Shown here piece by piece: positions 1 to 25,296 of a stretch of DNA of 64,000 nucleotides; the first letter of the stretch is position 1, and each line of letters opens with the position of its first letter. The notes below the pieces were generated by a model that had not been told where the DNA came from, ran no database searches, and worked only from the letters and a program-made list of their open reading frames with translations. Source of the DNA: Sediminitomix flava (GTDB taxonomy: Bacteria > Bacteroidota > Bacteroidia > Cytophagales > Flammeovirgaceae); contig NZ_QGDO01000002.1 in the NCBI RefSeq assembly GCF_003149185.1, positions 310,001-374,000 on the forward strand. Reading direction: 5' to 3'. Made by a program: the position numbers and the translations under genes.

Positions 1-3000
1 GGCTGAGGAAGTGTTTCCATAGCTACTTTAATGGTATCGGCATACTGACAACCATTTGGGTCTGTAGCTAAGCAAACAATTTCTTGTGAGGAATTTACTT
101 CGTGTTCATAAAACCAAGTAGAGGCTAAACTTGCACTCGTACTTAGGTCAAACCATTCTACACTGCTCATTCCTGTTGGCCCATAAAGCAATACCGTTCC
201 ACCATCACAAAGCGTAGTATCGGCTCCTAGGTTAAAAGTTGGTAATGATCGCATCTCCAAAAAGAGTGTATCACTATATCGACAGCTTGACTCATTGAAA
301 GCTGTAAGGTAAATGGTATCATTTTCAAGTACTTCTAAACTCATCTCGGCTTCTGTAGAAATTACACCTAGCTTTGTACTTTCCCATTCATAACTTGCTG
401 CATCCAGTGTATTTAAGTCTAAATGTAATACTTCTTGAAAACACAAAGCTGTATCTGTACCAAGATCAAATTCGGGTAAGGTTATTGGACGAATTAGTAG
501 TGTGTCATAGCTTACACAAGATTTAGCATTGAATACTTCTGCGACTAGTTCCAAAGTTTCTGTTACTTCGTAAGTAAACTGATCTGAGTTTAGACTTAAA
601 GCAAGAGGATTTCCTTTTTCATACCAATTTACTTCTGCGTATCCTTCTGTGCTTAAATCTATTTGGGTAAACTGATTGAGACAGACATTTCGATCTTCTC
701 CTAAATCTATGACAGGAAGTTCAAGGTGATCGATAAAAACCGTATCGTAGTTTACACAACTATTTTCATCGGTTACGCTCACTTCCAGTAAAATATCTTC
801 TGTAATCTCAAGGCTTAAATCTGGCTCATTCCCAAGTATGGAATCTGTTAGAATATTTCGCCAAACTATTGTTTGATAGTCATATATGGTCAGATCAAAA
901 GTTGTAATCTCTTCATCACATACTTCTTGATCTTCCCCTAGACTTATCGCTGGCAATTCATACACATTGACGGTCAATTCGTCACTGCTTTCGCAACCTT
1001 CTTCAGAAGTAACTATGACTTTTATATCCATAGCTGCACTTGGTGTGATACTCAAACTGGCAGCATCTAAAAGCAAGGTATCAGCTGTGGCATCATACCA
1101 ACTTACACTTGCGTAACTTTCAGCACTCAAGTCGAGTGTAATCGTTTCAGATGTACATATCCAAGGATTCTCCCCCAATTCAACCACTGGAAGCTCATCC
1201 ACTTCTAGCGTAATGGTATCACGCCCTACACAACCTTTATTATCTATTACTTCTAGCATAATCATAGATGCTGAAGTAAATGTGTGCGTATAAGTTTCTT
1301 CTGTTCCTAGTTCTAAACCTGATGGCAATGAAATCCACTTTAAGGATGCCCAAGCTTCTTCGGTTTGATCAAATGTGTAAGTTGTATTTTCACATTGAGA
1401 AAAGTCTTCTCCCAATTCGACATTTACTTCCTCTAACTTTCTGAGCCACACTGTATCTTTTGCATTACAGGTATTGGCATCCGTTACTGTCACCTCTATC
1501 TGAATGTCTTCGATCGGTAAAATTTCCAGTTGAGCGTCAGTTCCTACTATTGAATCATTATCAAGCAGTCTCCAACTCACGCTTTCCCAATTCTCCAATC
1601 TGAGGTCAAAGGTATAGCTCTCTCCATTACAGACTTCTATTTCATCGCCAATATCAACCCTTGGCTTATCATATGCTCTTACCCAAATTGAAGTTGAGTC
1701 TACACAACCATTTTCGTTACTGACCACTACAGTCACCTCTGTATCTGTCTCTACATCAAATGACCAAATGGCTTCCGTTGACTGCAAACTATGGTCTGAA
1801 GTAAAATACCATTTAATCTCATCCCAACCCTCATCACTCAGATCAAAGGTGTGAGTCTCATATTGGCAGACGTAAGGTGTTGCCCCTAAATTCACATCGG
1901 GTAGATTATTTTTAGTGACTGCAATTGTATCTCTACTGCTACAAGCATTTTGAGTAACTACAGCTTCAAGATTAAAACTCTCTGTAACCGTGTAAGAAAA
2001 AACATTTTCTGTAGATAGTCTTTCACCTGTATCAATATTGTACCACTCAATCGTTTCGTAAGATGCAGTACTCAAGTCAAATGCCATCGTTTCTCCTTCA
2101 CAAAAGCTTAAATCATCACCAAGGTCAGGTACAGGTAAATCTTTTTTAGTAATAGTAATCTCATCTGAATAAGTACAACCGTTGGCATCTGTCGTTTCAA
2201 CTCTCACAGTTCTATCTGCTGAAATTTGAATGTTTAAACTTGCCGTAGTTGCTAACACCGTATCAGGATCAACATCAATCCACTGAATACTTTCCCAATG
2301 ATCTGAGGAAAGATCAAAAGACACTTCCTCTCCTTCACAAACTTCTAAATCACTACCTAAACTCAATTCTTCTTGAACAAATACATCTACCTCTATTGTA
2401 TCTTTTACAACACAACCTAGGGGCTTGAGCACTTGGACTTCAATTTCAACTTTTTCTGAAATGCTCATTGTAAGTTCATTGCCTGAAGAAATCAAACTAT
2501 GATCAGCTAGGTTATACCAATTGACAACATCATCGGTAGTACCCTCATTGAGTATAATCTCAGTATTTACACAAACAGAAAAATCATCTCCTAAGTCGGC
2601 TTTATCACAGATGATAAAAGAATCCTCCGTCGAAAAAGCTGAACCTACACCATCTTGATCAATACTCTGTACCCCATAATAATATTGTCCTTCGGCTAAA
2701 TTTTCTAAGCGAAGTTCTTGACCTGAAAACTGAGTAGAAGAAAGCCCTGAAGAGTACCGGTAACCAGTATTCAAATCGGCTAAAGGTGAAAGAATATCTG
2801 CACTCCCTGTCGTTGTCCCGACATAATAACTATAAGCTAAAGCGGATAATGGTGTTAAGTCATCATTCCCTTCAACTGAAAAGCTAAGGCTTACATCATT
2901 TAGATTAACTGCGGCATTTAGATTTGAAGGTGCTGAAGGTGCTGTATTCGAGCTTGCTCCCACATTCTGATAGAGGTAAGTAAAATTCCCCCCATCGCCT

Positions 3001-4082
3001 TTTCCTGTGATAAGCAGATCATTTTTGTAATCAGCATTGTAATCTGCCTTCCGAATAACTCCAGAGGTTACATCTGGGAAGTCTGCTGTTTGAATAGAGA
3101 AAGTAGAAAGGTCATTTCGGTATACTTTTGCAGTAATACTGCCTGACTCATCTCCTGATAGAAAGACATCGACATCTCCATCATAATCATAATCTAAAAC
3201 TTCGATGGCTACATCTTGGGTAGCATCAAATTCAAACACTTCTGTAAATCCAAGACCTGATTGATTTTCATAGAGTTTTACAAATTCGTTGGTACTACTA
3301 AACCCCGCTAAAATTACATCTGTAAAGCCATCAATATTCCAGTCTAATAGCTCAATTTTACCCGAAGAAGCGATGGGTGTAAAAGATTGATTGGTATTTG
3401 AAAATGAGAAATTACCATCATGTTCATACAGGCTACTTTCGAGGGAAAAATTGTCATTTGTTCCTGTAACTAAAATCTCAAAATTTCCATCTTGATCATA
3501 GTCCATCGCTTTAAATTGCCCATAAGAAATTGCGGGTAAGTTATGTTCTTGTTCCTCGAATGTAGTCCCGTTATATTTTAAAAGCTTTGTGTATAGGTTG
3601 AAGTTTTCATCAAAACCACTAAGTATTAGTTCTTCAATTCCATCCCGATCTAAATCTACCCAACACAAACCACCTTGAGCTAAATCTACTCCTAAATCTA
3701 CCTCTGTAAAACCTAATCCTACATTATTCAGATAAACTCTGCTTATAGGTTCATTGGAAACACTCTTCCCTGCCATTGCAAAATCGGGATAGCCATCATT
3801 ATTTATATCTGAAACTGCTAATTCTGCTTCATAGATCTGTTGTAATCCAGAAGTCACATTATCCCAAGAGCCATCTCCATTATTTCTATATAGATAAGTA
3901 ATTGGTGTACTCCCTTGCATTCCCGTAATCAACACATCCATATTGCCATCAAGATTGTAGTCCAACCACAGGGCATTTGCTTTCTCTACGGCAGGCAAAG
4001 AAACACTATTGTCATAACTAAATGTTTGTCCAAAAGTAAGCTTACTTAACAATAGAAAAATCACAAAAAATATCTTCCTCAT
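1..4082 (-). CDS. FG-GAP/VCBS and Ig-like array surface protein (C-terminus beyond window)
   Basis: Large exported protein whose reading frame stays open to base 1; about 1,360 residues are visible. It starts with ATG at 4082 and a signal peptide (MRKIFFVIFLLLSKLTFGQ). Residues about 20-360 are FG-GAP/VCBS repeats with calcium-loop patterns such as DYNLDGNMDV and DINNDGYPDF, expected to form a beta-propeller. A fibronectin-like domain follows (about 375-485, beginning near TAPSAPSNL). Then come at least eleven modules of about 80 residues, each opening with a motif like DLGDDLSFCEGE and closing with a second Cys before DTI; these resemble Ig/PKD-like modules of T9SS adhesins. It lies 39 nt after the SprB-type gene, so probably in the same operon. 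A sorting domain is expected past the edge but cannot be seen. Function is inferred to be cell-surface binding. Confidence 0.9.
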   Translation of the reverse strand, partial: MRKIFFVIFLLLSKLTFGQTFSYDNSVSLPAVEKANALWLDYNLDGNMDVLITGMQGSTPITYLYRNNGDGSWDNVTSGLQQIYEAELAVSDINNDGYPDFAMAGKSVSNEPISRVYLNNVGLGFTEVDLGVDLAQGGLCWVDLDRDGIEELILSGFDENFNLYTKLLKYNGTTFEEQEHNLPAISYGQFKAMDYDQDGNFEILVTGTNDNFSLESSLYEHDGNFSFSNTNQSFTPIASSGKIELLDWNIDGFTDVILAGFSSTNEFVKLYENQSGLGFTEVFEFDATQDVAIEVLDYDYDGDVDVFLSGDESGSITAKVYRNDLSTFSIQTADFPDVTSGVIRKADYNADYKNDLLITGKGDGGNFTYLYQNVGASSNTAPSAPSNLNAAVNLNDVSLSFSVEGNDDLTPLSALAYSYYVGTTTGSADILSPLADLNTGYRYSSGLSSTQFSGQELRLENLAEGQYYYGVQSIDQDGVGSAFSTEDSFIICDKADLGDDFSVCVNTEIILNEGTTDDVVNWYNLADHSLISSGNELTMSISEKVEIEVQVLKPLGCVVKDTIEVDVFVQEELSLGSDLEVCEGEEVSFDLSSDHWESIQWIDVDPDTVLATTASLNIQISADRTVRVETTDANGCTYSDEITITKKDLPVPDLGDDLSFCEGETMAFDLSTASYETIEWYNIDTGERLSTENVFSYTVTESFNLEAVVTQNACSSRDTIAVTKNNLPDVNLGATPYVCQYETHTFDLSDEGWDEIKWYFTSDHSLQSTEAIWSFDVETDTEVTVVVSNENGCVDSTSIWVRAYDKPRVDIGDEIEVCNGESYTFDLRLENWESVSWRLLDNDSIVGTDAQLEILPIEDIQIEVTVTDANTCNAKDTVWLRKLEEVNVELGEDFSQCENTTYTFDQTEEAWASLKWISLPSGLELGTEETYTHTFTSASMIMLEVIDNKGCVGRDTITLEVDELPVVELGENPWICTSETITLDLSAESYASVSWYDATADTLLLDAASLSITPSAAMDIKVIVTSEEGCESSDELTVNVYELPAISLGEDQEVCDEEITTFDLTIYDYQTIVWRNILTDSILGNEPDLSLEITEDILLEVSVTDENSCVNYDTVFIDHLELPVIDLGEDRNVCLNQFTQIDLSTEGYAEVNWYEKGNPLALSLNSDQFTYEVTETLELVAEVFNAKSCVSYDTLLIRPITLPEFDLGTDTALCFQEVLHLDLNTLDAASYEWESTKLGVISTEAEMSLEVLENDTIYLTAFNESSCRYSDTLFLEMRSLPTFNLGADTTLCDGGTVLLYGPTGMSSVEWFDLSTSASLASTWFYEHEVNSSQEIVCLATDPNGCQYADTIKVAMETLPQ

Positions 4083-4121
4083 TTCACTAAATGCTTCTTA
4101 TCTGAAAAAATGTCTTAAACA

Positions 4122-7100
4122 CTAATATTTAGATACTTTCCTACTACTACGTTCTGTTACACTAATGATTTCTATAATATACATCCCTGTTGGAAGTTGA
4201 CTTACATCCCATTCTGTACTCACCTGTGTACTTCCACTGTTTTCGAGATATTCAAAATAGACACGACCAAGCATTCCCCTCAGTATAAGGCGTACTGGTT
4301 CTGCTTTTTCTAAATCTACTTTTACACTCAGAAGATTTGAAACAGGATTTGGCTTAGCCTGTATATTAATAATATTACTGTCGTTTTCTTGTTTACGTGT
4401 ATTCGTTTCTATATCAGAACTTGCTACAACTTCAACCCATTTAGTCACACTGTCTACACAACCTAGCTCAGAAGCTACGTACATTGTAAACTCATAACTT
4501 CCCTCTTCACTAAAAATGACTTCTTGCCTATGAATACTATCTGTTTCTAAAATTTCTACTTTATCCGATTCTGGATAACTCCATGTCACATTATCTGTTC
4601 TAGGCCAAGTGACGTCTACAAAAACTACAGTATCTCCAACTACAGCTTCTGAACTAATCACAAAATCAGTCTCTAATGTATTTTCAAGGTAATTTAGGGT
4701 AAAGCTTTTTTCAGCTAAACAACCATCTTCAGAAGATACATTTAAAGTATATGTTCCTGCTTCGGTAAGCACAATTTCAGAATTATAATAGTCTAGTCCG
4801 TTTACAGAAGTCCATTGATAACTCGCATAACCATCAGGATTCAGTACTAACTCTTGTCCTTCACATAAAGTGTATTCTAATTCTATTTCAGTAATTTCAA
4901 GTGGTGCAGGATCGATTAAGGTCACACTTCCTTCCACCTCACAGCCATTTGCATCTTGAACAATCAGCGTATAGGTTCCTTCACACAAGTCAGTCGCTTG
5001 CTGAGTTTTACTCCCCGAAGACCATGTGTATGTATAAGGTGCAGTACCTCCCGTAACAACCGCCTCAGCTTGTCCACTACACGATTCAAAACAAATTGGC
5101 ATAGTTGGGGAAATAGAAAGGTTGAGAGGTTCAGGGTCAGTCAATCTTACTATCAACTCATCACTACAACCTTCGCCATCATAAACGGTTACTACATATT
5201 TACCAGCAGATAGGTCTGTGCGTGAACTCGCGATTAAGCTATCTTCCCATACAAATTCATACTGACCATCTCCACCTGAGGCACTTAAATAAATCTCTCC
5301 ATTACTAGCCCCTACACACAAAGGTTCTTGAAGGCTATCTAGAGCTAAAACAATTTGTTCTGGCTCTCCCAGTTTTATATTTGAAAAGAAGGAACTACAA
5401 CCATTTACATCTTGAACTGTAAGGCTATACACTCCCGAAATTAATTGAGTTGCAATACTATCTTTACTTGCATTGCTCCAAGTAAATGTATAGGGTTTTT
5501 CACCTCCGCTTACAAGTGGGGTAATCATTCCATCTGTTCCACCATAACAACTTGGTTGCTGTTTTAAAGAATCTGGGATAACAATAGTTATTCCCTCTGG
5601 CTCGGCTACTACTACTGATAATGTAGTTTGACAATTCTGACTGTCTGTAACTGTAGCGATGTAAGTCCCTGATGTTAAACCACTAATATTCGTCCCTCTT
5701 TTATTATTACTCCAAGAAACTTGATATGGTGCTGTACCTCCTTCTATTGCTATTTTGATAGCAGCATCAGCTCCACCATAGCAACTTAATGCCGTTACGG
5801 AATCCAAAGTTGCAACTAATGACGTCGGTTGGTTTCCTATAGTTACAGCATCTGTAAGCTGACAACCATTCTTATCTGTAATTGTAAAAGTATAGCTTCC
5901 TAGTCCTAAGCCTGTTCGAGTTGTTCCAATCACTTCATTTCCCCAATCAACAAAGTACTCTCCTGCTCCTCCAGATATATTCAATGTTAATGTACCATTA
6001 TTGTCTCCTTCACATAGAGGGTCTGTCACTTCATAATCATATGTAATAGGCGATCTTTCAGGAATACTTACTTCTAGTGTTTTTGAACAACGCATTGCAT
6101 CCATAACTGTAACACTATGTATTCCACTTGTTAATGAATCTGCGAGTAAGGTAGTCTCACCATTATCCCACAAATACGTATAAGGCAATGTACCTCCACT
6201 TACCTGAACACTTGCTGTTGCATCACTCCCCTCTGTACAAGAAGGTGATAGTACAGCTACTAAAGTCAGTTCTAAAGAGTCTGGAGCAATAAGTTCAATA
6301 CTATCTAGCGCTAAACAATTATTCGCATCTTGAATTTCTATGAAATATTTTCCTACTGCTAAATCATTCACTTGCTCAGTTGTCGCTATTGTCTCTAAAC
6401 TTTCATTATACCATTTGAAAGCATATGGTGGTGTTCCTCCAAAATAAGACAAAGTAGCTTGTCCATTTTCTCCTCCAAAACAACTTAGGTCTTGCGACTC
6501 TGCAAATACACTTAAGATATTAGGTTCATTGATCACTAAAATGTTAGATGCTGTTGTAATTTCAAATAAGCAATTGTTGGCATCAAGAACTTGTAAACTA
6601 TGTGTTTCTGCTGCTAAATTTTCTTTTGTAGAAAGACCTTCTACAAAAGCCCCGCCATCCCAACTATAGCGATAAGGAGCTAAACCTTTTGTTATATCTA
6701 CTGAAATGGAACCATCATTTCCTCCATTACAACTCACATCTTTTAGAGAAACAGACACAACTTCCATCGCTTCCATTTCTGTAATTGAGAAGTAGAATCG
6801 TTCACTCTCACAACCATTTTGATCTAAAAGTTTAACACTATACTCACCAGCAGAAAGAGAAGTTAAAGAATCTACTTGAGTCTCTGCAATTTCGTCCCCG
6901 TTCAAGTTAAACCAAACATAAGCCAAAGCTGTAGTTACATTCAATGTTGAACTTACCTTCGCTGTACCTATAGCCTTATTACAAGCAGATACCGTTGTCT
7001 CAACATTTGTAATTTGTGGCTGTACTTCTGAATCTGCTAATGAAACCTGAAGTGTATCTCCACAAGAGTCTGCTCTACGTATTTCTAAATAATAAACTCC

Positions 7101-10100
7101 AGCTGAGATATCTGAAATGCTACTGCCCAAAGCAATTTGCTGCCACTCTTCCGAATACCAAACGTATTCACTTGCGGTGTAATCCTCTGCATTATCGGGT
7201 AAGAAAACAATTGATCCATCTGCTTGACCACAATGCGAAGGTGTTTTTTCAAATGTATGAGAACCAAACTCTTCTCTAACAGACTCTATTGTAAAGCTCA
7301 AAGTGTTTGAACATCCTCTACTATCTGAAAAACTAACATAATGTGTCCCTGCTCCAAGTTTCGAAATCAGTACCGATTCTTCAGATACAATTTCAGATGC
7401 TTTGGAAATAGATGCACCATTTGATAGGCTTGTAATTTGATATGGAGCAGAACCTCCAGTAAAACTGATACTGTAAGTTCCGTTTGAAAGCTCACATGTT
7501 GGTGAGCTTACTAAAGATGAATCAAAAAGGCTTGGGCCATCAATGCTTCCAATTGAGATATATTGTGCTACACTACAATTGCTTTCTGCATTTATTGTTA
7601 TAGGATAATTGACTCCTGCTGAAAGACCTGAGATATAAAATAACCCTAAAGTAGAATTTGCTGAGTCTAAACTTAGACTTTCATCTAAATCTATGATTTC
7701 ATAACTGTTTTCAATTACATCAGAAGAAATGACTTCTATAACTCCTGTCCCATTAGCCTCTCCACATGCCGCTAGGTCTATTGGTGTAAAAGAAAAGCTA
7801 AAAGCATCTTCTGAAGGTATAGATACTAAAAGTGATACGGAACATGTCGTGGAATCATCTTCTGCAAAGAAAATATAATCTCCAGCAGCTAAACCATCAA
7901 AATTGCATTCTAAGTCAACAAACAAGCTATTTTTTTGAGCCCCAATTTGATCTAGTTGATACGACCAATTTATTGTGGATAAATTTCCTTCGACACCTAA
8001 TTTTCCTCCGCCATTATTAAACTGGCAATAATCAGGAGTGACTTCCAAAAGATTAATTGATAACTCGTCCGTTGTTTCTACTGTAACTTCTTGAGAAATG
8101 GAACATAAAGAATCATCTACAACGCGTAAAGTATGTATGCCTTCTTCTAAATTATAAATAGTAAATGTATTCGCTATTAAATCATCTTCGTTTACATTAA
8201 AACTCAAGTCCCCTATTTGAATTAAATAAGGACTTACCCCTCCTGTCAAGTTAAATGATAACACTCCATTAGCTGCATTTGAACATGCAGCATCTTCAAT
8301 TACAATATGATCTACTATTAACTGTTCTGGGGCTGTAATCTGAAGCTCAAATACTTCAGAAAGACAATCAAAACTATCCTTAGCTCTAAAGTAATATGTC
8401 CCTTCCCCCAACTCAAAAGAATTTGTTAAAGTCCAACTCTCAATGATGTTGTTTCCATCAGCATCTTCAAACATTGCATATTCGACTTGTCCAACGTTTC
8501 CTTCAACAACTTCTAGATGGACATCTGTCAGATCTCCAAAACATGATAGTTGAATCTGTTGAACATCATCCATAGACTCTCCTTCAACACTACTGATTAC
8601 AAAACTTTGAGCTAATAAAGAAATAGAGTCTTCGACAAAACAACTTCCATTTTCAGTATTGATTGCTCTCACCCAATAATCTCCTACCCCTATATTTTCT
8701 ATAAGGTGTGAAGTGTATGAACTCGTATTTTCGATTTCAAAATCAGGCGTTGTTGATACTTCAAAATCATAGTTGGAAGGGTTTCCGTCCATTCGTACTT
8801 CTAAAGTATAAATATCACAGGCTTGAAGTTGTGATCTAATTTCAACAATTCGATTAAGGTTGGGCTGACTTAATTGTATATCATTAGAGCTAACACTACA
8901 GCCTAATGAGTCCTCTATGAGTACCGTATATTTTCCAGCAGCTAAATCTGTAAAAATCACTTTCGTGTTAAGCGGAATATCAACGAATTGGTAATCTTGA
9001 GAATTATTTGATAAGGTAATTGTATATAATCGATCATTATCTCCTCCAATAATTTCAAAACCTAACTGACCATCACCTCCTTCATAACAACTTAAGTCTT
9101 CTTTATCTGTCAATTGGTAAGCTATCTCATTGGCATTTTCCGTTGTGAATTCAAACAATTCTTCACAACTTCCTAAGTTATATTCTGCTTTATCTTCATT
9201 GTTTTGATCAAAATAGATTCGATCTCTGACGTAAAAATTAAAGTCTTCTCCACCTTTTAATCCATAAATCTTTAAACTATTAGAATCATTCCATGACGCA
9301 TATACTTTGAAATCCTCCGATACTCTTTGATATGAAAAATCTATCAGAATCGAATCTGAAATTGTTAAATCTGTCCAGTTAAAATTGGATTTATTTCCAT
9401 CAAATTCTTGCTCTGAGAGTAGTATTTGATAGTCTTCACTTCGACCCCCATTTAGATTTATAGTATAAGTTGCATCATAACCGTCATTACATATTGGAGC
9501 TCCAAAATTTTCATTCATTCTTGTGATTGGCTCAGGTCCTTCGAACCTAAAACTAAAGACAGAATCATCTTTACACAGTTGGTCTTCTGAGATATCATAG
9601 TAAACATCAAACTGATAATCCCCTGCCACAAAACCACTAAGGTCTAGACTGTCACTATAATTCAATAAAGTAGTAGTCGCATTTGAGTCATAAACATAAC
9701 TTCCATCTGGGTTTTCAGAGAAAGTAAGCGTATCTGTTCCACTCCTAATTGAGATGGTATAATCCCCCACTATAGAAGGGCTGCCTCCAGATATATTTCT
9801 GATATGGAAAACTCCATCATTAGCCCCATAACAGAATGGCCCATCTTGAGAAGTTGATAAGCTTATTCTTGGGTAAGAAGCTACCTTATATGCAAATTCA
9901 AATAGATGATCGGAGGTTCTATTATCCAACACTACTTCATTTGGATAGGCATTTTCTTTATCTACAATTTCACACGGACAAGCAAGGCTATCAGTAACCG
10001 TTAGATAGTATTCTAAAGAATCAAAAACTAGGTGATCACCTTCTCCATCCACAACATTATATGTAAGTGTATCAACAGTGTAATATTGGTTTGGCAAGCT

Positions 10101-13100: not shown

Positions 13101-16100
13101 AGTAGTAATTGTTGTGGTTATTACGATTTCATCTGGTTGAGTCAAATAAAAAGTATCATCACTAGCATCTGTTAGTGGTAATAATCTATACCCATCATAA
13201 TCTACTTGCCCTACTGATTCTTTTACATAAATCCTGTATTTATTCTCTTGACCAGGAATAATATCTGAAAAAGTAATCACTTCAGACAGATTATCTACAT
13301 CTATCGACCTAATCACACTCTCCTCATCATGACTATCTAATTGCCTTAGTTCAAATGTAGCAGGAAGTGTAACTGTACTCATGGTAAACTTTATCTCAGC
13401 CTTTTCACCAAACTTGCTTACATCTTTTCGCCCATCGACATGAGTAGTCACTATCTCATTAAGAATTTCTCTTGTTGTACCTGCTACAGACAATGTTGGC
13501 TCATTACTATTCTCAAGTACTGTCAATGATTTACTATCTGTTTTACAATCACTTAAACTTGCAGAATACAAATGAAAAGTATAAGTATGAGGAACGAGAT
13601 CAGTTACTGTAATTATTTTACTTGAATTATCACTAAGCTCTATTGTTGTATTACTACTTAAAGGATCTAACTTATATGAATTTCCAGAATCATGTACTAT
13701 TCCAAAACCATTAGGTAAGCTCGTAAATGATATGATTCGATTAACTCCACTTCCATTATCTTCACCTTCTCCATTTACCATAAAAGTAATCTGCCCATTA
13801 TTCCCTCCTACAATCGTTGGATCACTCGAACTTAAATTCGTAATACTCAATTGCACAGGTTCATTAATTGTAGCAGATTCAGACAAAGAACTACTTATAC
13901 AGCCTCCTGTAGCATTTACTGTAAAAGTTCCAGATGAAAATTCAGTCAAACGTGCTGTCCAAGCTTTCTTTTGATCTGAAATAGAATTATCAGTAAACTC
14001 ATAGCTTGGAGTAGTTCCATCTAACTTATAAGAATAAGTACCTGGATCGTCCTCGTCAACCTCTAATGCAATCTCTATAGCACCATTATTACCACCAAAA
14101 CATCCTTGTACATCAATAGGTGTAAGTGTCAGACTAGGTGCCGTATATTCAGTTATAGCAATATTAAAAGTAATCGACGAGCTACAACTATTCGAGGTGA
14201 ATATTACTGTATTTTCACCTGCACTTAAGCTTATATTTCCTTCAGTATACGCTTCATCATTCACTTCAACACTTACCCCTGAAGTTCCTCCGCTTCCATT
14301 TGCATTTATGCTATAGCCAAAAGTATAAGATTCTCCTATACAAACCTTTTTATTAATATCATTTGAAGTACTTGTATAATCTCTTCCTTCGAATTTCACT
14401 GATAATGGAGATGATGGCTCTGTTATAGAGAAACTAAGTGATACTAAACCTTCAGTTTCAGTAAAAGTATTAGGAAACCCTACATCTGATTGACAATCAT
14501 CTCTTACTACGATAGTATAGTTCCCTACTTCAAGGCCTGTAATTTGTCCAAGACCACTGGAAAATGAAACAGTCTTTGTAACCTTAGCATTATCCTTATA
14601 AAGTTGATAACTAGGGTTTCCTAAAAAATTAACCAAGTTAAACTTATATTCTCCATTATTTCCCCCATAACAAGCCACATTTGTTAAATCATTTAGTGTA
14701 ATGCTTGGTGTACTTGTAGATTCCGTTAATGTTATAACCTCAGTTTTTCCGATAGCATCACTTAGATTAGCTAAATATGTTAATTCTGTAGGATCATAAA
14801 CTTGATTAAGAGTAAAGACATTCCCTTCACTATCCTTAGGAATGTTAATGTAAACACACTTATCTATGAGAATTGCTAGATAGCTCTCCTCCGTTTCGAA
14901 AAAACCTAAAGTTGAATTCCCATTTATTGTTGCTTTATAATTACTTTCATCAGCAGTAAACGAGGATAATGTTTCAATTGATATCAATTTATATTCGGTA
15001 CTAGATAATTCATTAAAAACAAGTGTAAAATATTCTGAATCATAATTTGTAGTTAATTCAACTGAATTATCTGTAACATTCAAACAATTTGGAGCTATGC
15101 TACTTAAGCTCACTTCAAGCTCATCAATACCCGTTTTCAATTCCTGATGATAATCAATCGTATTAATCTCTATTGACTCTTGTATATAATAACCTCCAGT
15201 ATATTCACCATCACTACATGAGCCTTTTTCAAAACAATAGGCAGGATTTGAAGACTCATATAATATTGTAAATTCTCCTTCACCAATTTCTAATGTTTCA
15301 TACGATTCTAAATGTGTCAGAATCTGTGTTTCGTCTCCTTTTAGAACAATAGAACTAGAATTTTTTAGTCCATTTTCTGTCAAATTATACACTTGTCCAG
15401 CAACAAGAACTGATGACAAATTTTGAGGATCAGGATCATTAGGATTAGGGGATTTAGCAATTTCAGAAAAATAGTCACAAAGACTCTTGGTTGGACGTAA
15501 TACAAAACCTGTTACTTCAAAGTTACTAGGAAATGGAGATTCAAACTCTATGTGAATCTCTCCATTTGTCCCCCCTTTACATTCTGGTGCTATTGTAGTT
15601 ACACTTTTTAATTTTGGTAAGGGTTTTTTAAGACTAATCGTTTGAGTTCCCATCCCAAATGAACCTACATTATTTGGTACATATACTCTAATATCAATAT
15701 CACCTTCTTCAACTAAGGTGTTGTTTTGTCTTAAAGTACCTTCTTCAGACAAATCCAAACTTGGATTTGCCATTCCACTTGCAAATTCGATCCAAGAGCC
15801 ATCAACGTCCTGTACTTCCCAGGTCAAATACTGATCATATGCATCTGAACCCGTAAATTCTACACCAAATTGACTATTCCAACATTGGTCGCCTATAGGT
15901 AGGTCTATTTCGCCTTCAAAGCTTTCTGTAGGTTCGACCCAAAAAGTTGCTGTCAGTTTACCAAAAAATCCCACTGTCAACTCTTCTTTCGGACCTGTAT
16001 TGAAATCGCAGAACTCTGCTGCTTTGTAAAGTTTGGTTAAAGAACCTGTAGCTGACTGAGTAACTGTTTTTGTTAAAGATGGATTTAAACTAGTATTAAT

Positions 16101-16469: not shown

Positions 16470-16489
16470 TGATCTTAGTATTTAAAAAA

Positions 16490-18586
16490 TCAAATTTGAA
16501 GTATTTTACTAAACTCCGATTGCGCTCCATCCAACATCACAGCCCTAATTCGATAGTTATATATTACTCCAGTCTGGATAGCTGAATCTATAAATTCCGT
16601 ATCTACAGGACTGAGCTCTTTATAAAGGCGCAAGTTTCCATCTCCCACCTGACGATAAAGCATATATTTCACAACATCTTTTCGATCATAAGCCCACCAA
16701 AGTCTAATTTCTTTTTGCATAAGGTCTAGTTTTCCACTGAATTGACTAATAGCAGCCCGAATTTTATTGTCAATTCGCTTCCCCCTTACAGGTTTAGCTG
16801 GTGTTGATTCATTCTTTGCTCTATCCATGACTACTAAAGTGTAATAGTAACTTTCAAAGTCTGCCATACTTTGATCATTCCAAAGTAATGAATCACCGAT
16901 TGGACGAACACCAACTAAACTCCAATTTTCAGATGACTCTACCTTTTTTCTATACAATGCATAAACTGCGACATCATTGCTACTGCTTTTATACCAAGTC
17001 AAACTGACACCATCCGAGGTAGATTTCACATCCTTAAAAGTTGTTGGTGCAGGAGGAATTAAATCAGGTTTAGCCAATTGAATAATGGAACTTTTATCAG
17101 ACATATTACCCACTTTATCTACTGCTGCAATCTGATAATAGATATCTGAGTTCAAAGTTTTCATACTAACGGAGTCCAAATAGTATGTTGTTGTGACCAC
17201 TTTTCCATTTCTTAAGACAAACTCTTCATGCTTTTTATTCGCTCTGAAAATACTATAACCTGCTACATCTAAGTCTGGACTCTCGGTCCATTGGAGTGTC
17301 ACTTTCCCTTCTCGATCAACTTTTCCTCTAAAGTCTACTGGTATTTGTGGAGGGATACTATCAACCATAGTCACCATATAAGGCAAAGAATAACTGATTT
17401 GATTGGAGGAGTCTACATAAGCCAATTTGTAATAGTTACTTTGCAGAGGAGCCACATCCGTATAATGCGTAGATTTGTTTGATAAATTTTTAGCTATTGG
17501 TATATACTGGTCTTCTGCACTTGACGCTCTATAAATCTCTTGATGATGAATCAAATTCCTTTGATCTTTGGGCAATTCCCATTCAATTCGGACTTGCTTG
17601 TTATCCTCGTTTACAACTTCTTGAATAATTGGTATTGCTGTAAGCTCTTTAGATGCTTTGATGGTTACTACCCTAGATGACGGTCCAATATCTCCAAAAG
17701 CATCTACACCTAAGACTCTGTATTTATAGGTCTGGTAGTTTAAGGGAACCGAATCCATCTTAACCAAATAACGAGTACTGATTTTCGTTTCATCAAAGGT
17801 ATTTACAATTGGATTGGAATGAATTTTATGGAAGGATTTCCCCTTATCATCAGATCGTTCTATCCAAAAGCCTATATAGTTGAACACAGACAACTCTTGA
17901 TTCCAAGAGACTTCCACCATTCCATTACGGTATTGAGCTTGTACTTCTTGTACTTTAGGTAAATTCTTCACTTCAGCTAGTCCTGTCACTACCACTCCCG
18001 GAGCTGCCATTTCTAAATGGTTTGGGACATTAGAAATGACTCTATATAAATACGTCTCATTTGAATTTGCCGAATGATCTTCGTAATACAAGCCAGAATA
18101 TTCTGCCACTCTTATGGATTGATCGGCTGCTGAAAGTGCAAAAGCAAAACGCATTTCTCTTTCTTTCACAGTATTGATCACCGTAACCATATCCACTTGA
18201 GAAAGATTATTATCCATTGTCACATCTTCTCCATAAATAGATTGTGCCGCTACCCCAAATAAATTACTATCATGAATAACTTCTGCCCACTCCTCTACTG
18301 AAAGAGGCTTTAAAGTATCTGCTAGCACTTTCGTTTCAGGTTGAATAGATTTCCCATCACGATATAAGGTCACACGCTCTAACTTGTAACCATATTGGTT
18401 TGTAAACCACCATAAACTAGGGTTGGAAGGAGCCCAACGGAGCTTTATAGACTCACCATCTGTTTTACTCCTCACCATAATTGCTGAGGGAGTATCTTCT
18501 TGAGCATAAGAATTCGTCCCCAACATAAAAAAGCTGAATAATATAATTAGTAGTAATTTGTATGGTTTTATATTATAAACAATCAT
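16490..18586 (-). CDS. Exported fibronectin type III multidomain protein
   Basis: A 698-residue protein with a signal peptide (core LLLIILFSFFMLGTNSYA). After an N-terminal region of about 190 residues (opening with SAIMVRSKTDGES, itself Fn3-like) come about five fibronectin type III domains. They are recognised by the strand pattern VSWNQ, IEWELP, LQWTES, LTWYKS and LWWAYD, each followed by YxxYR-type and YYY-type strands. The protein ends on the last Fn3 strand (FSKILQI) with no T9SS sorting domain, so it is probably periplasmic or tied to the outer membrane through partners. It begins 19 nt after the 1,571-aa gene and ends 20 nt before the SprB-type gene. A scaffold or adaptor role for the giant cargo is inference. 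Confidence 0.9.
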   Translation of the reverse strand: MIVYNIKPYKLLLIILFSFFMLGTNSYAQEDTPSAIMVRSKTDGESIKLRWAPSNPSLWWFTNQYGYKLERVTLYRDGKSIQPETKVLADTLKPLSVEEWAEVIHDSNLFGVAAQSIYGEDVTMDNNLSQVDMVTVINTVKEREMRFAFALSAADQSIRVAEYSGLYYEDHSANSNETYLYRVISNVPNHLEMAAPGVVVTGLAEVKNLPKVQEVQAQYRNGMVEVSWNQELSVFNYIGFWIERSDDKGKSFHKIHSNPIVNTFDETKISTRYLVKMDSVPLNYQTYKYRVLGVDAFGDIGPSSRVVTIKASKELTAIPIIQEVVNEDNKQVRIEWELPKDQRNLIHHQEIYRASSAEDQYIPIAKNLSNKSTHYTDVAPLQSNYYKLAYVDSSNQISYSLPYMVTMVDSIPPQIPVDFRGKVDREGKVTLQWTESPDLDVAGYSIFRANKKHEEFVLRNGKVVTTTYYLDSVSMKTLNSDIYYQIAAVDKVGNMSDKSSIIQLAKPDLIPPAPTTFKDVKSTSDGVSLTWYKSSSNDVAVYALYRKKVESSENWSLVGVRPIGDSLLWNDQSMADFESYYYTLVVMDRAKNESTPAKPVRGKRIDNKIRAAISQFSGKLDLMQKEIRLWWAYDRKDVVKYMLYRQVGDGNLRLYKELSPVDTEFIDSAIQTGVIYNYRIRAVMLDGAQSEFSKILQI

Positions 18587-18605
18587 AATTATCTCAGTTT
18601 TTTAA

Positions 18606-21600
18606 CTATTGCTCTGGTTCATGATCTGGTACAAGGTTTATCACTTCTGTCTCAATTTCTGTGGTGATTATATTTTTACCTGGAAGTCTATATCGAATGA
18701 CGTATGGATATCGCCCTTCTTTAATTCTAGGGAAATTACCTGTAAGTAGATTATCAAATCTTGATGGAGGAGTTACTCCTTGATTAATGAAATAATTTCC
18801 GATTTTATTTCTGAGATCTGTGAAATCCTCTTGGAAATAATATACTAGACTATACTTGATAAAAAATCCATCAAAGTAAGATGACGACGATTGACTTTGT
18901 ATCTCACTATCTTTCAGTAAAAGATCTATAGGGTATTGGTCAATGAAAATTCCTTTAGTAGGTACAACACCTAAAACATTTACATCTCTCTTGAATGTTT
19001 TACCATATAATGGATAATATTTATAAATCATAGGGTAAATTTCATCATCAAAATATGAGACATCTTGTCCCTCAAAAAGTGCCTCAATTTCAACCAATTG
19101 CTTTTCGTTATACCCTTTAACTTCAAATTGATCAAATAATTCACCCTCCAATTGGTTCAATAAATAGTGAACATTTGTTCCAATGGTCAATCGAGCATCA
19201 TTCTCCCTTACGAAAGAGTTAAACTTCTCATTAAATGATGTATACTTACTCGATCTAAAATTAATTTCATATAAGAAGTTTTCTTCTAAAGCTTCAATAG
19301 TTCCCTCTGCTTTATTATCACGTAAGGCCACTGTATTTTCACCTTTTCCCTTATCTTCTATATTCAATTTCTTCTCTCCTTTTACAATATTAGCATCGAA
19401 ATCTATTTCTACTATAGGAGATTGTACTAATTCCAACTTATATACTTTCTCTTTCGTCAAACTTGTTGGTATTGGAAAAGATACTTCTTTATTAGCCACA
19501 TTATAAAGAAGTTCAGTTTCTTCAGTCATTCCAGAGTTTGTTGTAAAACGCGCAACTTGTTTCCATTTAGACAGATCTATGTCAAAAAGTTTTGAACGTC
19601 CACTCTGAAGTTGTATGTAACCCTTATTGTACTCAGCTACATAGAAATTAAATTGCTTTTCTATTGGATAAGTATATTCAATATTAGATGCCACCAAATA
19701 CTTTGGTTCCTCACCGGATGTAAATACATGAGTTCGTTCTTGATCTTCTCCATCTATTTTTTTCCAACTTCCATTTTTATCTTCTTCAAAATGGACTTTA
19801 ACTGTAGCTACTAAAGTCGTTTCTCCAGGCAGAATCTCATAAGGATTAAAAATTAATACATCACCCGTTGAATTCCACTCCAGATCTCCTGTAACTTCAT
19901 TTTTACTTTCATCAAATACTCTAAAATAATCTAGTACTGCTCGGAATTTATGGGTATTTCCATCATAATCTTTCAATTCAAATACTTTACCCACTTCCAT
20001 ATTAAATGCTACCTGTGGAGTTGTAAATACATTGATATCAGTTTTTGAGTCCGCAGGAGTCAAATCTGCGATGATGTCTATATTACTCAGCATACTATCT
20101 TCACCCTCAATCTGACATTTTTCTCCCATTTCAAATTCGAACTTACAACTACCCTTAATCAGTCCGCCTAAGATATTGTATTTCCCCCCTACTATTCCTC
20201 TCATCCAAAATGGATTAGGGCCTCTCGCTTGTAAAACAGCTGCTACTGCTAAATCAAGGATCTGATAGTCTCCCTTTATAAATCTTGGTTTTTTAACTGA
20301 AATTCCAATTTCAGCCTCTAGGTATGCATACATTTGACCATTTGCATACCACCCATTAATCCCCAAAGGTCCACTTCTACCAGCACAAGTAGCATCCGAG
20401 CCATAGTTTGCCATCATGACATCCATACCTGCCCCAAAGGAAAATTTACCATAAAAGATCAAGAAACTTTTTCGTCCAGATTTAGCCTCTCCATCATTCT
20501 CTCCTCTGCTAAATCCTGCTCCAAAATGTACTCCAAATGCAAACCCAAGACCTTTCTCTAAATTAGATACATCATCCATGTAACTCAAATCCATTCCGCC
20601 AAGGATACTTGAAACTTTACCAGGTGGAGTAGGAGGTTCTGGCATTTTATATCCCGCCATAAAATACCCCGATGATTCAAATAAATTTGCTACATTTACA
20701 GCTATTGGAGCTTCAGGCGTACCTACATGGATGTACCACTTCTCAGGAGAGAAATGCATCACTGATAAACCTCCTCCTGTTACTGGTGGAGCATTTAGAG
20801 TAAGTGCTAAACTCGCATTAAAGGTCTTATTAGGATGATCATAGAGCATATTAAGTTTGGCTGTTAGACCTACATCCTTACTCGTTGCTATTTCGGGTAA
20901 ATTTTCACCTTCTTTTGACTTCCCGGCAGCGGCTACACTTTGAACACTTTCCGTAAATTGGTCTAACTCTAAACCTGTAAACTTATTTACTGCTACATTG
21001 GCTGAGCCATTAAAACTCATCTGGTTCAGTCCTCCTCTAGTCGTAAAACTCATCTCAAAAGTAGCATCTGCAGTCATTATACCTGAAGGGATACTAACCA
21101 CTGCAGTAGCTTTAAAACCAAGCCCTACATCTTCATTTGGAACATATTTTATACCTGATAAAGAACAGCCTATTTCTCCTTCGCCACAAGGTGCTACTCC
21201 TGCTTGCTCAATACCATAATAGAGGCCTCCACCAATACCCATCAAGTTAATTGTACCCATAGGAATTCCAGAGGCACCAAAAGTCCCTAACACATCCGCA
21301 TACCAGTATCTATGTCCTTCAACTTTACCGAACAAAACCATACTTTCTACTCCTGCACTGATGCTTTCCAACTTTAGATCCAACATCCCTTGAAAACCTT
21401 TTCCATAGACTGGGTCTCCATCAATAAAGTGTACTGCACCATAAAGGGAGAAGGTTCCGGGTTTGGTAATATCTACTTCAATTTTCTTAAGTTGTATTTT
21501 ACGAAATGCATATGATCCACTAAGCTTTTCTTCTCCCCAAATCACAAAAGAAGTCGTTCCTCCAAAATCTTTACTTAAAGCAATGGAAGTCTCTATACCT

Positions 21601-23321
21601 AAACCGACCCAACCTGTTTCGGGGTCTGAGGTCAACGAAACTTCATCAATAGATAAACCAAAACCTGCTAAGGCTTGATTTGCAGCATCTGAGCTAACCG
21701 AAAAATACTCTGCACTAATTTTTGGTGCTACAGTCTGAATCTGAAGATTTTGAAATTCCATAGCAGCCAAACTCACCCCAGGATCGCTCAATTGAATATC
21801 CATTGAACCATACAAATTGGCTTTTGGCTTAAACCTCCCTGACTCTACAGTCACTTCAAGTGAGGAATTAGGTAATACCTCTACATTGCTTGCTGCAAAC
21901 ATCGGGATATTCATCGTATCTAATGCCTCTACCTGAAATGTGTAATCTTGCCAACCATAGATTCCAGCATGGTAGTCTAATTGTTTATCTTCCTTATTGA
22001 TAGGCAATTGGATTAAACCATCAAAAGTTGCATACTCAAACTGATTAGCCGTTATTTTTACTTGTACTTCTTCCAAAGAAAAATTCCAAGTACCTAGCTT
22101 CCCTTTTTCTAGCGTAATAATATTATAGCCCGTAAATTTCCCTGTCAATCCTACATCATCAAGAATAAGATTATCTACAAGGAAGGAAGTCCTTCCATTA
22201 TTAACTCGGCTTCCCCTATTGTCAACTGTAGTTTCTATTTCAACATCATATTCTATTTCACCATCTTCACCTTCCGTTTCTGTCACTTTTTCTTCCTGCT
22301 TTAACTCTTGGGGTAAATGAACTTCAGCTCTGCGAATGTAAAATCCTCTCCATAAATTCTTATTTTCTCCAATAATTAAAGGTGAAGTATAACCTTCTGG
22401 GAATGTCATTCCTGAACCATTATAGGTATCGCTCATATCAAAAATGGCATCTTGCACTTTGAAAGACATTCCATTCCCGTTCGTCAATTGAAACTTTGGA
22501 ATATCAACTTCCAGAATAAAATCATCCCAAGAGTTTACTTGCGTAGTTAAGCTAGAAGTTACATAACCATCTGCTGGCATTCCTGAAGCATCTTCTGGTA
22601 CAATGATATCTCTTGAAAAAACTATGTCTAAGTCTAGTGCCATACTTTTAAAGCCACCACAATCCCATTCTACAAATGTCAATCCCTGCCCTCCTTTAAA
22701 AACAAGCTGAGTGTTGGGTGAGATACTTACAGGTGTTTCTGTCAGCAATTCCAATCTTGCATCACCTTGAATACCTCCACTTTTAGACATTTGGATATGT
22801 TCTCCATAGAAGTATATTTTTTTCTCAGAACCTGGCATTGTAATCCCCATAAAGGCATTGAAGTAAGTTTCAGTAGGAGTCAATACTACGCTATCTATTC
22901 CAATGACAAATTCACCAGCAGTGTCACCTGATCCAATTTTCTTCCTAATTCCTACAGGAAAAGTGATTAGATCTTGCGGCATCAAATACTCTACAAAATT
23001 ATCAGCCAAAGCTATTTCATTCATTCCCTTTTCAATCAATTGTATTTTCCGCTGGATATCAGGGGATATACTATTGTTTAGGCTAGGCATAGCTGGAATT
23101 GAAGCATCCTCAATAAACGGTTCTTCAACATCTAAGAGGAGGTCATCAAAACTTTTCTCTAATGAAAGTCCATACAGATTTGCTACTGACTTTAAGTTAT
23201 GTTCAGTAGTTTCGTTATGTAAACCTTTATTATTTTTCTCTGTTGGTTCTGAAGTATTTGCATAACCTACAGAGAAACATATATTCAGTATAGCAATGAA
23301 AAATAGTAATCTGTATTTCAT
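18606..23321 (-). CDS. Very large beta-rich exported protein, family not recognised
   Basis: A 1,571-residue protein with a signal peptide (residues 1-22, ending SVGYA). I do not recognise a named family. The body from about 130 to 1,100 is rich in short amphipathic beta-strands and glycine, with phrases such as MGTINLMGIGGGLYYGIEQ, compatible with a long beta-solenoid or lipid-handling beta-sheet. Residues about 1,130-1,350 look like Ig-type domains (VAFNMEVGKVFELKD onward). The C-terminal 200 residues have a different, mixed composition and there is no T9SS sorting domain. The start codon lies 1 nt past the stop of the barrel gene, implying coupled translation, so the two products probably work together at the outer membrane. 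A secretion or anchoring accessory for the downstream SprB-type protein is the most economical inference. Confidence 0.9.
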   Translation of the reverse strand: MKYRLLFFIAILNICFSVGYANTSEPTEKNNKGLHNETTEHNLKSVANLYGLSLEKSFDDLLLDVEEPFIEDASIPAMPSLNNSISPDIQRKIQLIEKGMNEIALADNFVEYLMPQDLITFPVGIRKKIGSGDTAGEFVIGIDSVVLTPTETYFNAFMGITMPGSEKKIYFYGEHIQMSKSGGIQGDARLELLTETPVSISPNTQLVFKGGQGLTFVEWDCGGFKSMALDLDIVFSRDIIVPEDASGMPADGYVTSSLTTQVNSWDDFILEVDIPKFQLTNGNGMSFKVQDAIFDMSDTYNGSGMTFPEGYTSPLIIGENKNLWRGFYIRRAEVHLPQELKQEEKVTETEGEDGEIEYDVEIETTVDNRGSRVNNGRTSFLVDNLILDDVGLTGKFTGYNIITLEKGKLGTWNFSLEEVQVKITANQFEYATFDGLIQLPINKEDKQLDYHAGIYGWQDYTFQVEALDTMNIPMFAASNVEVLPNSSLEVTVESGRFKPKANLYGSMDIQLSDPGVSLAAMEFQNLQIQTVAPKISAEYFSVSSDAANQALAGFGLSIDEVSLTSDPETGWVGLGIETSIALSKDFGGTTSFVIWGEEKLSGSYAFRKIQLKKIEVDITKPGTFSLYGAVHFIDGDPVYGKGFQGMLDLKLESISAGVESMVLFGKVEGHRYWYADVLGTFGASGIPMGTINLMGIGGGLYYGIEQAGVAPCGEGEIGCSLSGIKYVPNEDVGLGFKATAVVSIPSGIMTADATFEMSFTTRGGLNQMSFNGSANVAVNKFTGLELDQFTESVQSVAAAGKSKEGENLPEIATSKDVGLTAKLNMLYDHPNKTFNASLALTLNAPPVTGGGLSVMHFSPEKWYIHVGTPEAPIAVNVANLFESSGYFMAGYKMPEPPTPPGKVSSILGGMDLSYMDDVSNLEKGLGFAFGVHFGAGFSRGENDGEAKSGRKSFLIFYGKFSFGAGMDVMMANYGSDATCAGRSGPLGINGWYANGQMYAYLEAEIGISVKKPRFIKGDYQILDLAVAAVLQARGPNPFWMRGIVGGKYNILGGLIKGSCKFEFEMGEKCQIEGEDSMLSNIDIIADLTPADSKTDINVFTTPQVAFNMEVGKVFELKDYDGNTHKFRAVLDYFRVFDESKNEVTGDLEWNSTGDVLIFNPYEILPGETTLVATVKVHFEEDKNGSWKKIDGEDQERTHVFTSGEEPKYLVASNIEYTYPIEKQFNFYVAEYNKGYIQLQSGRSKLFDIDLSKWKQVARFTTNSGMTEETELLYNVANKEVSFPIPTSLTKEKVYKLELVQSPIVEIDFDANIVKGEKKLNIEDKGKGENTVALRDNKAEGTIEALEENFLYEINFRSSKYTSFNEKFNSFVRENDARLTIGTNVHYLLNQLEGELFDQFEVKGYNEKQLVEIEALFEGQDVSYFDDEIYPMIYKYYPLYGKTFKRDVNVLGVVPTKGIFIDQYPIDLLLKDSEIQSQSSSSYFDGFFIKYSLVYYFQEDFTDLRNKIGNYFINQGVTPPSRFDNLLTGNFPRIKEGRYPYVIRYRLPGKNIITTEIETEVINLVPDHEPEQ

Positions 23322-23322
23322 A

Positions 23323-25071
23323 TTATTTCTCCTTTTTTTCTATCAGAGTCGCACCAAAATTATAAGCATAAGTTAGAGTTACAGTAAATTCTGATGCTGT
23401 TTGATCATTACTGTTTTTAACATTTCGACTAACTAACACTCCACTCAATTGAAAATTGTGTTTTTCCTTTAAAGAATAGTTTGCTGAAGACCTAAAATTC
23501 ATCACCTGATTTGTCAATTCCCCTTCAGTTTCGACACCATTCCAAGACATTGCATATCGTGTTTGAAGCTTTCTTTCGAAAAAAGACTTTGTAAATGAGC
23601 AATTTGGGCCATATGTTTTCACATTACTTTCAGGGCTCTGATTTAAACTTGCATTAGCACCAAAAGAAATTGCATAATTCCGTTCTCTATCTCTAATTCC
23701 AAAAACAGTATTTAGGTTATACATGCTTGTAGATGTATAACTATCTATCAAGGGTTGTTCATCAGAACTCTGCTGCCAAGAAAAGTTTACATTTAAGTTT
23801 TTAGAAAGTGTTTTTGAGGTTTGAATCTGCCAAGAGCTAGATATATTTGCTGTTTCAGCGATTTGAGTAAACTGAAGAGTATCTAACACATCATATTCAC
23901 TAAGTGTAGTGAATGATTCATCAATTGGCCTCACATTCGTATAGGTTCTAAAATTAGAATAAGAAGTACTCAACTGAAGCTTAGGATGAATTTGCCATCC
24001 TAAATTCATAGACCCAACTAAACGCTCCATATCTGAATGTTTAGTTTCTGCAATGTTATCTCGTTGGAGACCTACATTCGTTGATACACTTACCTTTCCT
24101 TCAAAAAGCTGTACACTAGCATTTGTTGTAATATTTTCTAGGTCATTATTAAAGTAATAAGCACCTAGAGTTTCATACTCAGGAGCAACACGTTCATACC
24201 GTACTCCTACTACATACCCTTTCCCTGTGTAACTTAATCCAGTGTTAAAAGCAACATATAAATTTGTTGCACTAGTATTTCTATAGCCTAAAAAAGAAAA
24301 TGGATTATCTGATACCTCTTCTGTAACTCTATTATCTCGATTCATCGATGAAAGTGCGACTTCACCTTGAAAGAATATTTTTTGAGCTATTGACTGAGAG
24401 ATATTCACTCCCAATACAATATTTGACAAGGGCTTTACATCAATAAAATCAAGTGAGTTTTGTAATGAATTTTCTTCATCTTTAGCTGAAAACAATGAAA
24501 AGCCATATCTATTATTTCCGCTTTGATAATTAATCTGTGTACCAAAGCCATTCCGTTTATAAGAACCTACTAGATTATCATTTTGATTCAAAGAATCATA
24601 CTCTATGGCTTTATGAAACCTGCCATAAAAAGCTTTTACATCCCAATGATCATTAAGCGTCACTTCGGTCCCAAAACCCGCAAAGGTGTATCCCTGATAA
24701 GTATAAGGTGAGAAAGACATATTCACATAGCCAATGTGTGTCCGTACATTTTTATAAGATGGATGTAGAGATATTTGATTAAAGGGCTGAGGATACGTAT
24801 AATCAAAATTTTGATTCGAATATGATAAACTTATGGGAATACTTATTCCATATAAGGATGCTGCAATATTTCCATTAAGTACATAGGTATAAGGAGACCG
24901 TCTATCTTCATCACCAAAAGCAGTATATGCTACTTGGTTTAAAGATATTCCGCCACTAATACTCAAAGGGTCTTCCTCTAATATCTGATCTATAGCTTGA
25001 GCAAAAACAGGAATTGAACTAGATATAAAGAAAAAAGTAAACAGTAATCTGATAGTAAAAAAATCCCTCAT
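23323..25071 (-). CDS. Outer-membrane beta-barrel protein, first gene of the giant-protein operon
   Basis: A 582-residue protein with a signal peptide (ending SSIPVFAQ). From about residue 35 it shows alternating aromatic/polar strands typical of outer-membrane barrels, for example YGISIPISLSYSNQNF and YGFSLFSA, up to a final strand FTVTLTYAYNFG and a short charged tail. Its length suggests more than 20 strands. It is too large for the PorP/SprF family (about 300-350 aa) that accompanies SprB in Flavobacterium, and I do not see that family's pattern. It heads the operon and is followed after 1 nt by the 1,571-aa gene. Inferred role: membrane anchor or conduit for the surface proteins encoded behind it. 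Confidence 0.88.
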   Translation of the reverse strand: MRDFFTIRLLFTFFFISSSIPVFAQAIDQILEEDPLSISGGISLNQVAYTAFGDEDRRSPYTYVLNGNIAASLYGISIPISLSYSNQNFDYTYPQPFNQISLHPSYKNVRTHIGYVNMSFSPYTYQGYTFAGFGTEVTLNDHWDVKAFYGRFHKAIEYDSLNQNDNLVGSYKRNGFGTQINYQSGNNRYGFSLFSAKDEENSLQNSLDFIDVKPLSNIVLGVNISQSIAQKIFFQGEVALSSMNRDNRVTEEVSDNPFSFLGYRNTSATNLYVAFNTGLSYTGKGYVVGVRYERVAPEYETLGAYYFNNDLENITTNASVQLFEGKVSVSTNVGLQRDNIAETKHSDMERLVGSMNLGWQIHPKLQLSTSYSNFRTYTNVRPIDESFTTLSEYDVLDTLQFTQIAETANISSSWQIQTSKTLSKNLNVNFSWQQSSDEQPLIDSYTSTSMYNLNTVFGIRDRERNYAISFGANASLNQSPESNVKTYGPNCSFTKSFFERKLQTRYAMSWNGVETEGELTNQVMNFRSSANYSLKEKHNFQLSGVLVSRNVKNSNDQTASEFTVTLTYAYNFGATLIEKKEK

Positions 25072-25231: not shown

Positions 25232-25262
25232 AAAAAAAGCACCGAGTAAATACCCGATGCTT
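25232..25262 (-). terminator. Rho-independent terminator of hemL
   Basis: Imperfect palindrome with arms AAGCA/TGCTT and inner CG and GTA/TAC pairs; on the minus strand it is followed by a run of seven T. It lies 35 bp past the hemL stop. Confidence 0.8.
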
Positions 25263-25296
25263 CATATGCTATTTCGTAAGCTGTATCAGCGTAATT

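Follow-up and report, generated by a model that had tools for sequence, protein, structure and literature searches.

Polymorphic toxins of the TANFOR class were described in Bacteroidetes by Jana, Salomon and Bosis in 2020 (PMC7073777). SprB, Por_Secre_tail, Fn3 and PKD domains are enriched around their genes, export by the T9SS has been proposed, and the characterised toxin tail is BaCT, a PD-(D/E)xK DNase (PMC7073777). Among T9SS cargos, SprB carries a type B tail, and a type B cargo beside a PorP/SprF carrier is the usual pairing (PMC10202324). C-terminal twin cysteines tie SprF to the gliding track (PMC12635249). The locus that we describe here, from Sediminitomix flava, shares features with both systems, and we propose that its genes probably belong to a TANFOR toxin operon.

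We analysed a stretch of 64,000 nucleotides (the window; G000:C2:310001-374000) together with its left flank, L009, in which a position minus 15000 gives the window position. Five ORFs, all on the minus strand and separated by gaps of 1, 19, 20 and 39 nt, were found where the initial annotation had placed five exported proteins, and all five products have signal-peptide-like N-termini. The same annotation had them in one transcription unit of more than 25 kb. The tight spacing stands, and suggests that the genes are co-transcribed, but the extent of the unit does not, since the window edge truncates an operon that probably has eight genes rather than five. Beyond the left edge, the gene for the type B cargo is followed after 25 nt by that for a carrier and, after a further 131 nt, by a gene for a 2,111-aa protein that overlaps a gene for a 246-aa protein by 8 nt. 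Hence, the five genes probably make up the first part of a unit of eight, with toxin and immunity-like genes at its end. The features are as follows.

25236..25263, minus strand: terminator-like hairpin of the upstream aminotransferase gene (12-pair stem and T tract)
23323..25071, minus strand: outer-membrane beta-barrel as modelled (AlphaFold2, Foldseek), 582 aa, core gene 1, probably first in the operon
18606..23321, minus strand: predicted all-beta exported protein of 1,571 aa, core gene 2 (homologue search, TANFOR fusion in relatives, model pLDDT 79)
16490..18586, minus strand: Fn3-type exported protein of 698 aa, core gene 3 (neighbour of core gene 2 in relatives; Fn3-like matches in the PDB)
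4122..16469, minus strand: T9SS type A cargo of 4,115 aa with SprB repeats, probable adhesin (PF13573 ten times, PF18962 above cut-off)
1..4082 (ORF 3-4082, open at the window edge; end at L009:13296), minus strand: T9SS type B cargo of 1,928 aa with FG-GAP and Ig_7 repeats (CHU_C/TIGR04131 tail)
L009:11729-13270: PorP/SprF-OmpA carrier, 513 aa (TIGR03519 match)
L009:5262-11597: probable TANFOR toxin, 2,111 aa
L009:4529-5269: immunity-like gene, 246 aa
L009:4402-4363: terminator-like hairpin after the immunity-like gene

The aminotransferase gene is closed by its terminator-like hairpin (25263-25236), and therefore the barrel gene probably opens the unit, with the hairpin as the 5ʹ limit of the operon. 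The toxin gene could have its own promoter in the 131-nt gap, which is a point against a single eight-gene unit. A scan for Bacteroidota promoter motifs gave no excess over chance, and sigma-70-like sites occurred at chance level only.

Two further features of the region were observed. An IS200-like Y1 transposase gene lies just after the immunity-like gene (L009:3442-4402; G000:C2:298442-299402), flanked by two direct copies of a hairpin, ACTTTATCTTACNGTTTAGATGAAGT, that has no further copies in the genome; transposase and hairpins constitute a RAYT/REP-like element. Within the window (34124-35890, minus strand), a Rieske domain (residues 14-75) is fused ahead of a cytochrome P450 (residues 121-571). 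Across 118 genomes of the order, a full-length relative is present in one other genome (G051:C95:7733-9412, 51% identity), and the remaining P450 matches are without the Rieske part.

The architecture of the 2,111-aa protein suggests a polymorphic toxin of the TANFOR class, and a probable bacteria-killing one. Like the described TANFOR toxins (PMC7073777), it has a Sec signal, a TANFOR-like N-terminus with Fn3 and a variable C-terminal putative toxin domain, here of PD-(D/E)xK type, with a putative immunity gene downstream; an HExxH metalloprotease precedes the tail. The toxin class is already known, and the curated TANFOR cut-off is not reached by the protein of this locus, for which the match is weak (TIGR02542 model positions 1-140 of 145, E 1.3e-4, 22 bits for the N-terminal 300 aa versus an NCBIfam cut-off of 67). 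Among 38 toxin N-termini, those of this locus and 37 homologues, 30 match TANFOR at E <= 0.01, the best at 1e-12. For 27 long homologues, the N-terminal 300 aa are similar in 351 of 351 pairs and the C-terminal 200 aa in 12 of 351; in the unfused 1,571-aa family, examined as a control, 2,753 of 2,926 pairs have similar C-termini. The C-terminal domains of relatives include AHH, Endonuclea_NS_2 and EndoU, and a small ORF lies directly 3ʹ of most toxins in homologous loci. The tail of the S. flava protein is common to one relative, G034 (34% over 192 aa), which also has a homologue of the immunity-like protein. The motifs kept between the two tails (E..YV, PDG, IYDVK and EQL.DY) are typical of PD-(D/E)xK nucleases, and the 246-aa product of the overlapping gene is a predicted, immunity-like protein. 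At about residue 1030, between the N-terminus and the tail, stands a zinc-protease motif, HELGHGxFxLxH, which hardly varies among long TANFOR toxins despite the unrelated tails that follow; the embedded protease may serve for self-release. No T9SS tail of type A or B was found on the 2,111-aa protein, which ends in the putative nuclease.

What are the three proteins at the front of the operon? None of them, barrel, 1,571-aa protein or Fn3 protein, matched a named Pfam family or domain. The initial annotation had considered the barrel unlike SprF, and we agree: it has no match to a Pfam or NCBIfam family, including PF11751 and TIGR03519, and an AlphaFold2 model based on 33 homologues (pLDDT 82, pTM 0.67, 25 long strands) suggests a wide pore of about 25 strands. 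The best Foldseek match of this model is MtrB (6r2q_B, TM 0.54), followed by ushers, LptD and SprA. MtrB is a barrel that sheaths another protein, and the modelled core barrel resembles both the sheath-like MtrB and usher pores. An all-beta fold with long amphipathic strands is predicted for the 1,571-aa protein (model pLDDT 79, pTM 0.48). Foldseek gave no convincing match for it, with LptD and apolipoprotein B at TM <=0.15, and PDB sequence searches, single and profile, returned no match for this protein or the barrel. The 698-aa protein has Fn3-like matches in the PDB.

Recurrence of the neighbourhood in other genomes, which the initial annotation had set as the test of its own interpretation, was found in many genomes. 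Of 148 genomes of the order, 33 have the barrel, 29 the 1,571-aa family and 41 a TANFOR protein. TANFOR is present in every one of the 33 genomes with the barrel (9.1 expected, P 9e-26), and barrel and 1,571-aa protein occur together in 26 (6.5 expected, P 2e-19); these P values are inflated by genome relatedness, and a TANFOR match may lie either on a toxin or on a 1,571-aa homologue with which it is fused. Across the phylum, the 1,571-aa family is present in 44 of 395 genomes drawn, and 440 GTDB genome stretches encode a relative. Among the best 80 of these 440 stretches, which we refer to as split loci and many of which stop at contig ends, the Fn3 protein is found in 75 (mostly as the next gene), the barrel in 43 and TANFOR in 38. 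Gene order varies between loci but the members recur; one relative (G077) has the gene order of the window, plus two small genes between carrier and toxin. Together, these comparisons show a conserved, phylum-wide module of barrel, 1,571-aa protein and Fn3 protein, the presence of which tracks TANFOR and not SprB repeats. We also considered the 1,571-aa protein as a second toxin, and rejected this because its C-terminus is conserved and the Fn3 gene is mostly directly next to it.

The 1,571-aa homologue starts with a TANFOR domain of its own in 18 of 20 distant loci; these fused loci comprise 17 hits from across the phylum plus one locus from within the order, picked among more distant ones. 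The same fusion occurs in five further genomes of the order. Profiles of the toxin N-termini and the fused-protein N-termini match (hhalign, E 9e-48 over 260 columns), which indicates that the two are homologous. One branch of the 1,571-aa family tree, with a support of 100, parts fused from unfused forms, in a tree whose long branches and varying composition make it a guide rather than proof. Because a large sister clade has the two joined in one protein, TANFOR and the 1,571-aa protein would, by the usual fusion argument, act together. The barrel and the Fn3 protein are both present in 18 of 18 fused loci. No separate toxin is visible in these 18 loci of 20 kb, and the module therefore has some other basic function in the fused clade, which counts against a role in toxin export. 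The fused-clade C-termini diverge, with similarity in 14 of 253 pairs. We discarded the idea that the fused proteins are polymorphic toxins: by eye, several of their endings resemble one another, and the gene that comes next is that for the Fn3 protein or the barrel, with no immunity gene.

As at the described TANFOR loci, neighbours of the S. flava toxin have SprB repeats, Por_Secre_tail and Fn3 (PMC7073777). In contrast, the barrel, the protease domain, the 1,571-aa family and the fusion of TANFOR to it are not mentioned in the main text of that study (PMC7073777). Proteins without a named domain would escape a domain-enrichment survey around TANFOR genes. Among the open-licence papers that our literature search covered, none was found to describe the barrel, the 1,571-aa family or their link to TANFOR, which does not in itself prove that they are new.

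The CdiB/CdiA (type Vb) system has a similar outline, with an outer-membrane barrel, giant stick-like exported proteins, a variable C-terminal nuclease and an immunity gene. Unlike CdiB/CdiA, the locus has no Omp85/POTRA or haemagglutinin-repeat match, its barrel is unrelated by sequence, and adhesin and toxin are separate proteins.

We propose that the five genes front an eight-gene TANFOR polymorphic-toxin operon, in which the core serves as an outer-membrane docking and export module for TANFOR toxins and T9SS adhesins provide contact. We regard this explanation as the best and as moderately probable, the docking and export being read solely from co-occurrence and fusion. The three core proteins would assemble into an outer-membrane complex, for which TANFOR would be the docking domain, in cis when fused and in trans on the toxin. 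Since the toxin is without a T9SS tail and its TANFOR domain would be docked on the core, it would be displayed or exported through the core complex. The type A protein with SprB repeats and a type B fibre on an OmpA-anchored carrier would give cell contact, the embedded zinc protease may free the toxic tip, and the immunity-like product of the last gene would protect the producer. More tentatively, the core may be a dedicated export and delivery machine of the outer membrane, separate from the T9SS, with TANFOR as its targeting domain. It would then be a Bacteroidota secretion route not described so far, and toxins would have come to use it through the passage of TANFOR between the 1,571-aa protein and a toxin carrier separate from it.

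An alternative explanation is that the TANFOR toxin leaves by the T9SS, as proposed by Jana et al., and that the barrel is a dedicated carrier, analogous to PorV/SprF, that keeps the toxin on the surface. Indeed, T9SS type A cargo is encoded at 51 of the 80 split loci, SprA is encoded in the S. flava genome, >95% of TANFOR genomes have a T9SS (PMC7073777), and T9SS carriers are outer-membrane barrels (PMC10202324). However, the toxin ends in a predicted nuclease rather than a type A or B tail, the modelled barrel of about 25 strands has no PorV/SprF family match, and few T9SS cargos lie beside the core in the fused clade (3 of 18 loci, P 4e-4 for the difference from split loci). Hence, we consider this explanation unlikely. 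It also seems improbable to us that the core is a surface complex of an ordinary kind, serving adhesion, envelope structure or uptake, and that the toxin and T9SS genes of the split form are later passengers using it as an anchor only. The fused three-gene form, which is found across many families and in which neither a toxin tail nor an immunity gene is visible, is consistent with such a complex, but every barrel-bearing genome searched in the order has a TANFOR-type protein, and no other export route is visible for the toxin.

In the 4,115-aa protein, SprB repeats form 10 stretches (PF13573, E 2e-90), and the tail is type A (PF18962, 31 bits versus a cut-off of 27; also TIGR04183) and not type B (TIGR04131). 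The 1,928-aa protein, with its type B tail (CHU_C, 61 bits; TIGR04131, 53 bits, cut-off 35), has a TIGR03519 carrier next to it, like other type B cargos, although this carrier, unlike the usual ones, has a C-terminal OmpA domain. The initial annotation saw no SprF-type carrier in the set; a genuine member of the PorP/SprF family (TIGR03519, 93.4 bits versus a cut-off of 90.55) is encoded just outside the window. The SprF-type twin-cysteine C-tail is absent from the carrier, the sole cysteine of which is residue 31, in the N-terminal region. OmpA domains are of the peptidoglycan-binding type. Because the carrier has an OmpA domain in place of the twin cysteines, it may be a fixed anchor rather than part of gliding. 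In the order regions examined, type B cargo occurs only in four loci of the window's own family, and the pair is therefore accessory, outside the wider core. The operon thus resembles the SprB/SprF operon of Flavobacterium johnsoniae in having SprB repeats in a giant T9SS cargo and a PorP/SprF carrier, and differs in the type A tail, the OmpA-fused carrier without gliding-track cysteines, and the extra core and toxin genes. Hence, the view of the initial annotation that the set is an accessory system by which a SprB-like fibre, for gliding or attachment, is displayed, which is right as to SprB repeats and has T9SS tails on two giants and a PorP/SprF-type carrier in its favour, is very unlikely, since the SprB-repeat protein lacks the type B tail, the carrier lacks the gliding cysteines, the giants vary or are absent while the core stays and tracks TANFOR, type A cargo is near only 3 of 18 fused loci, and the operon ends with the toxin and its immunity-like partner.

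Other giant proteins were observed. In four genomes of the order, a protein of 5.3-5.9 kaa stands in place of the SprB-repeat giant; the one in G015 (L051:14630-20000 and L069:1-10925) has PKD, Ig and right-handed beta-helix repeats. The window encodes a second giant exported protein (36093-44285, minus strand). The N-terminus of this 2,730-aa protein gives a weak G8-like match, and its T9SS tail, of type A, scores below the Pfam cut-off and above that of NCBIfam. The 6.6 Mb S. flava genome has about 100 Por_Secre_tail (type A) matches, many on proteins longer than 1,000 aa.

An entire class of Bacteroidota weapons, the TANFOR toxins, lacks a T9SS signal, and their exit route was left open in 2020. 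The locus offers two conserved, unnamed partners, the wide-pore barrel and the giant beta protein, and fusion evidence that ties both to TANFOR. With these, the question of how the toxins leave the cell becomes directly testable.
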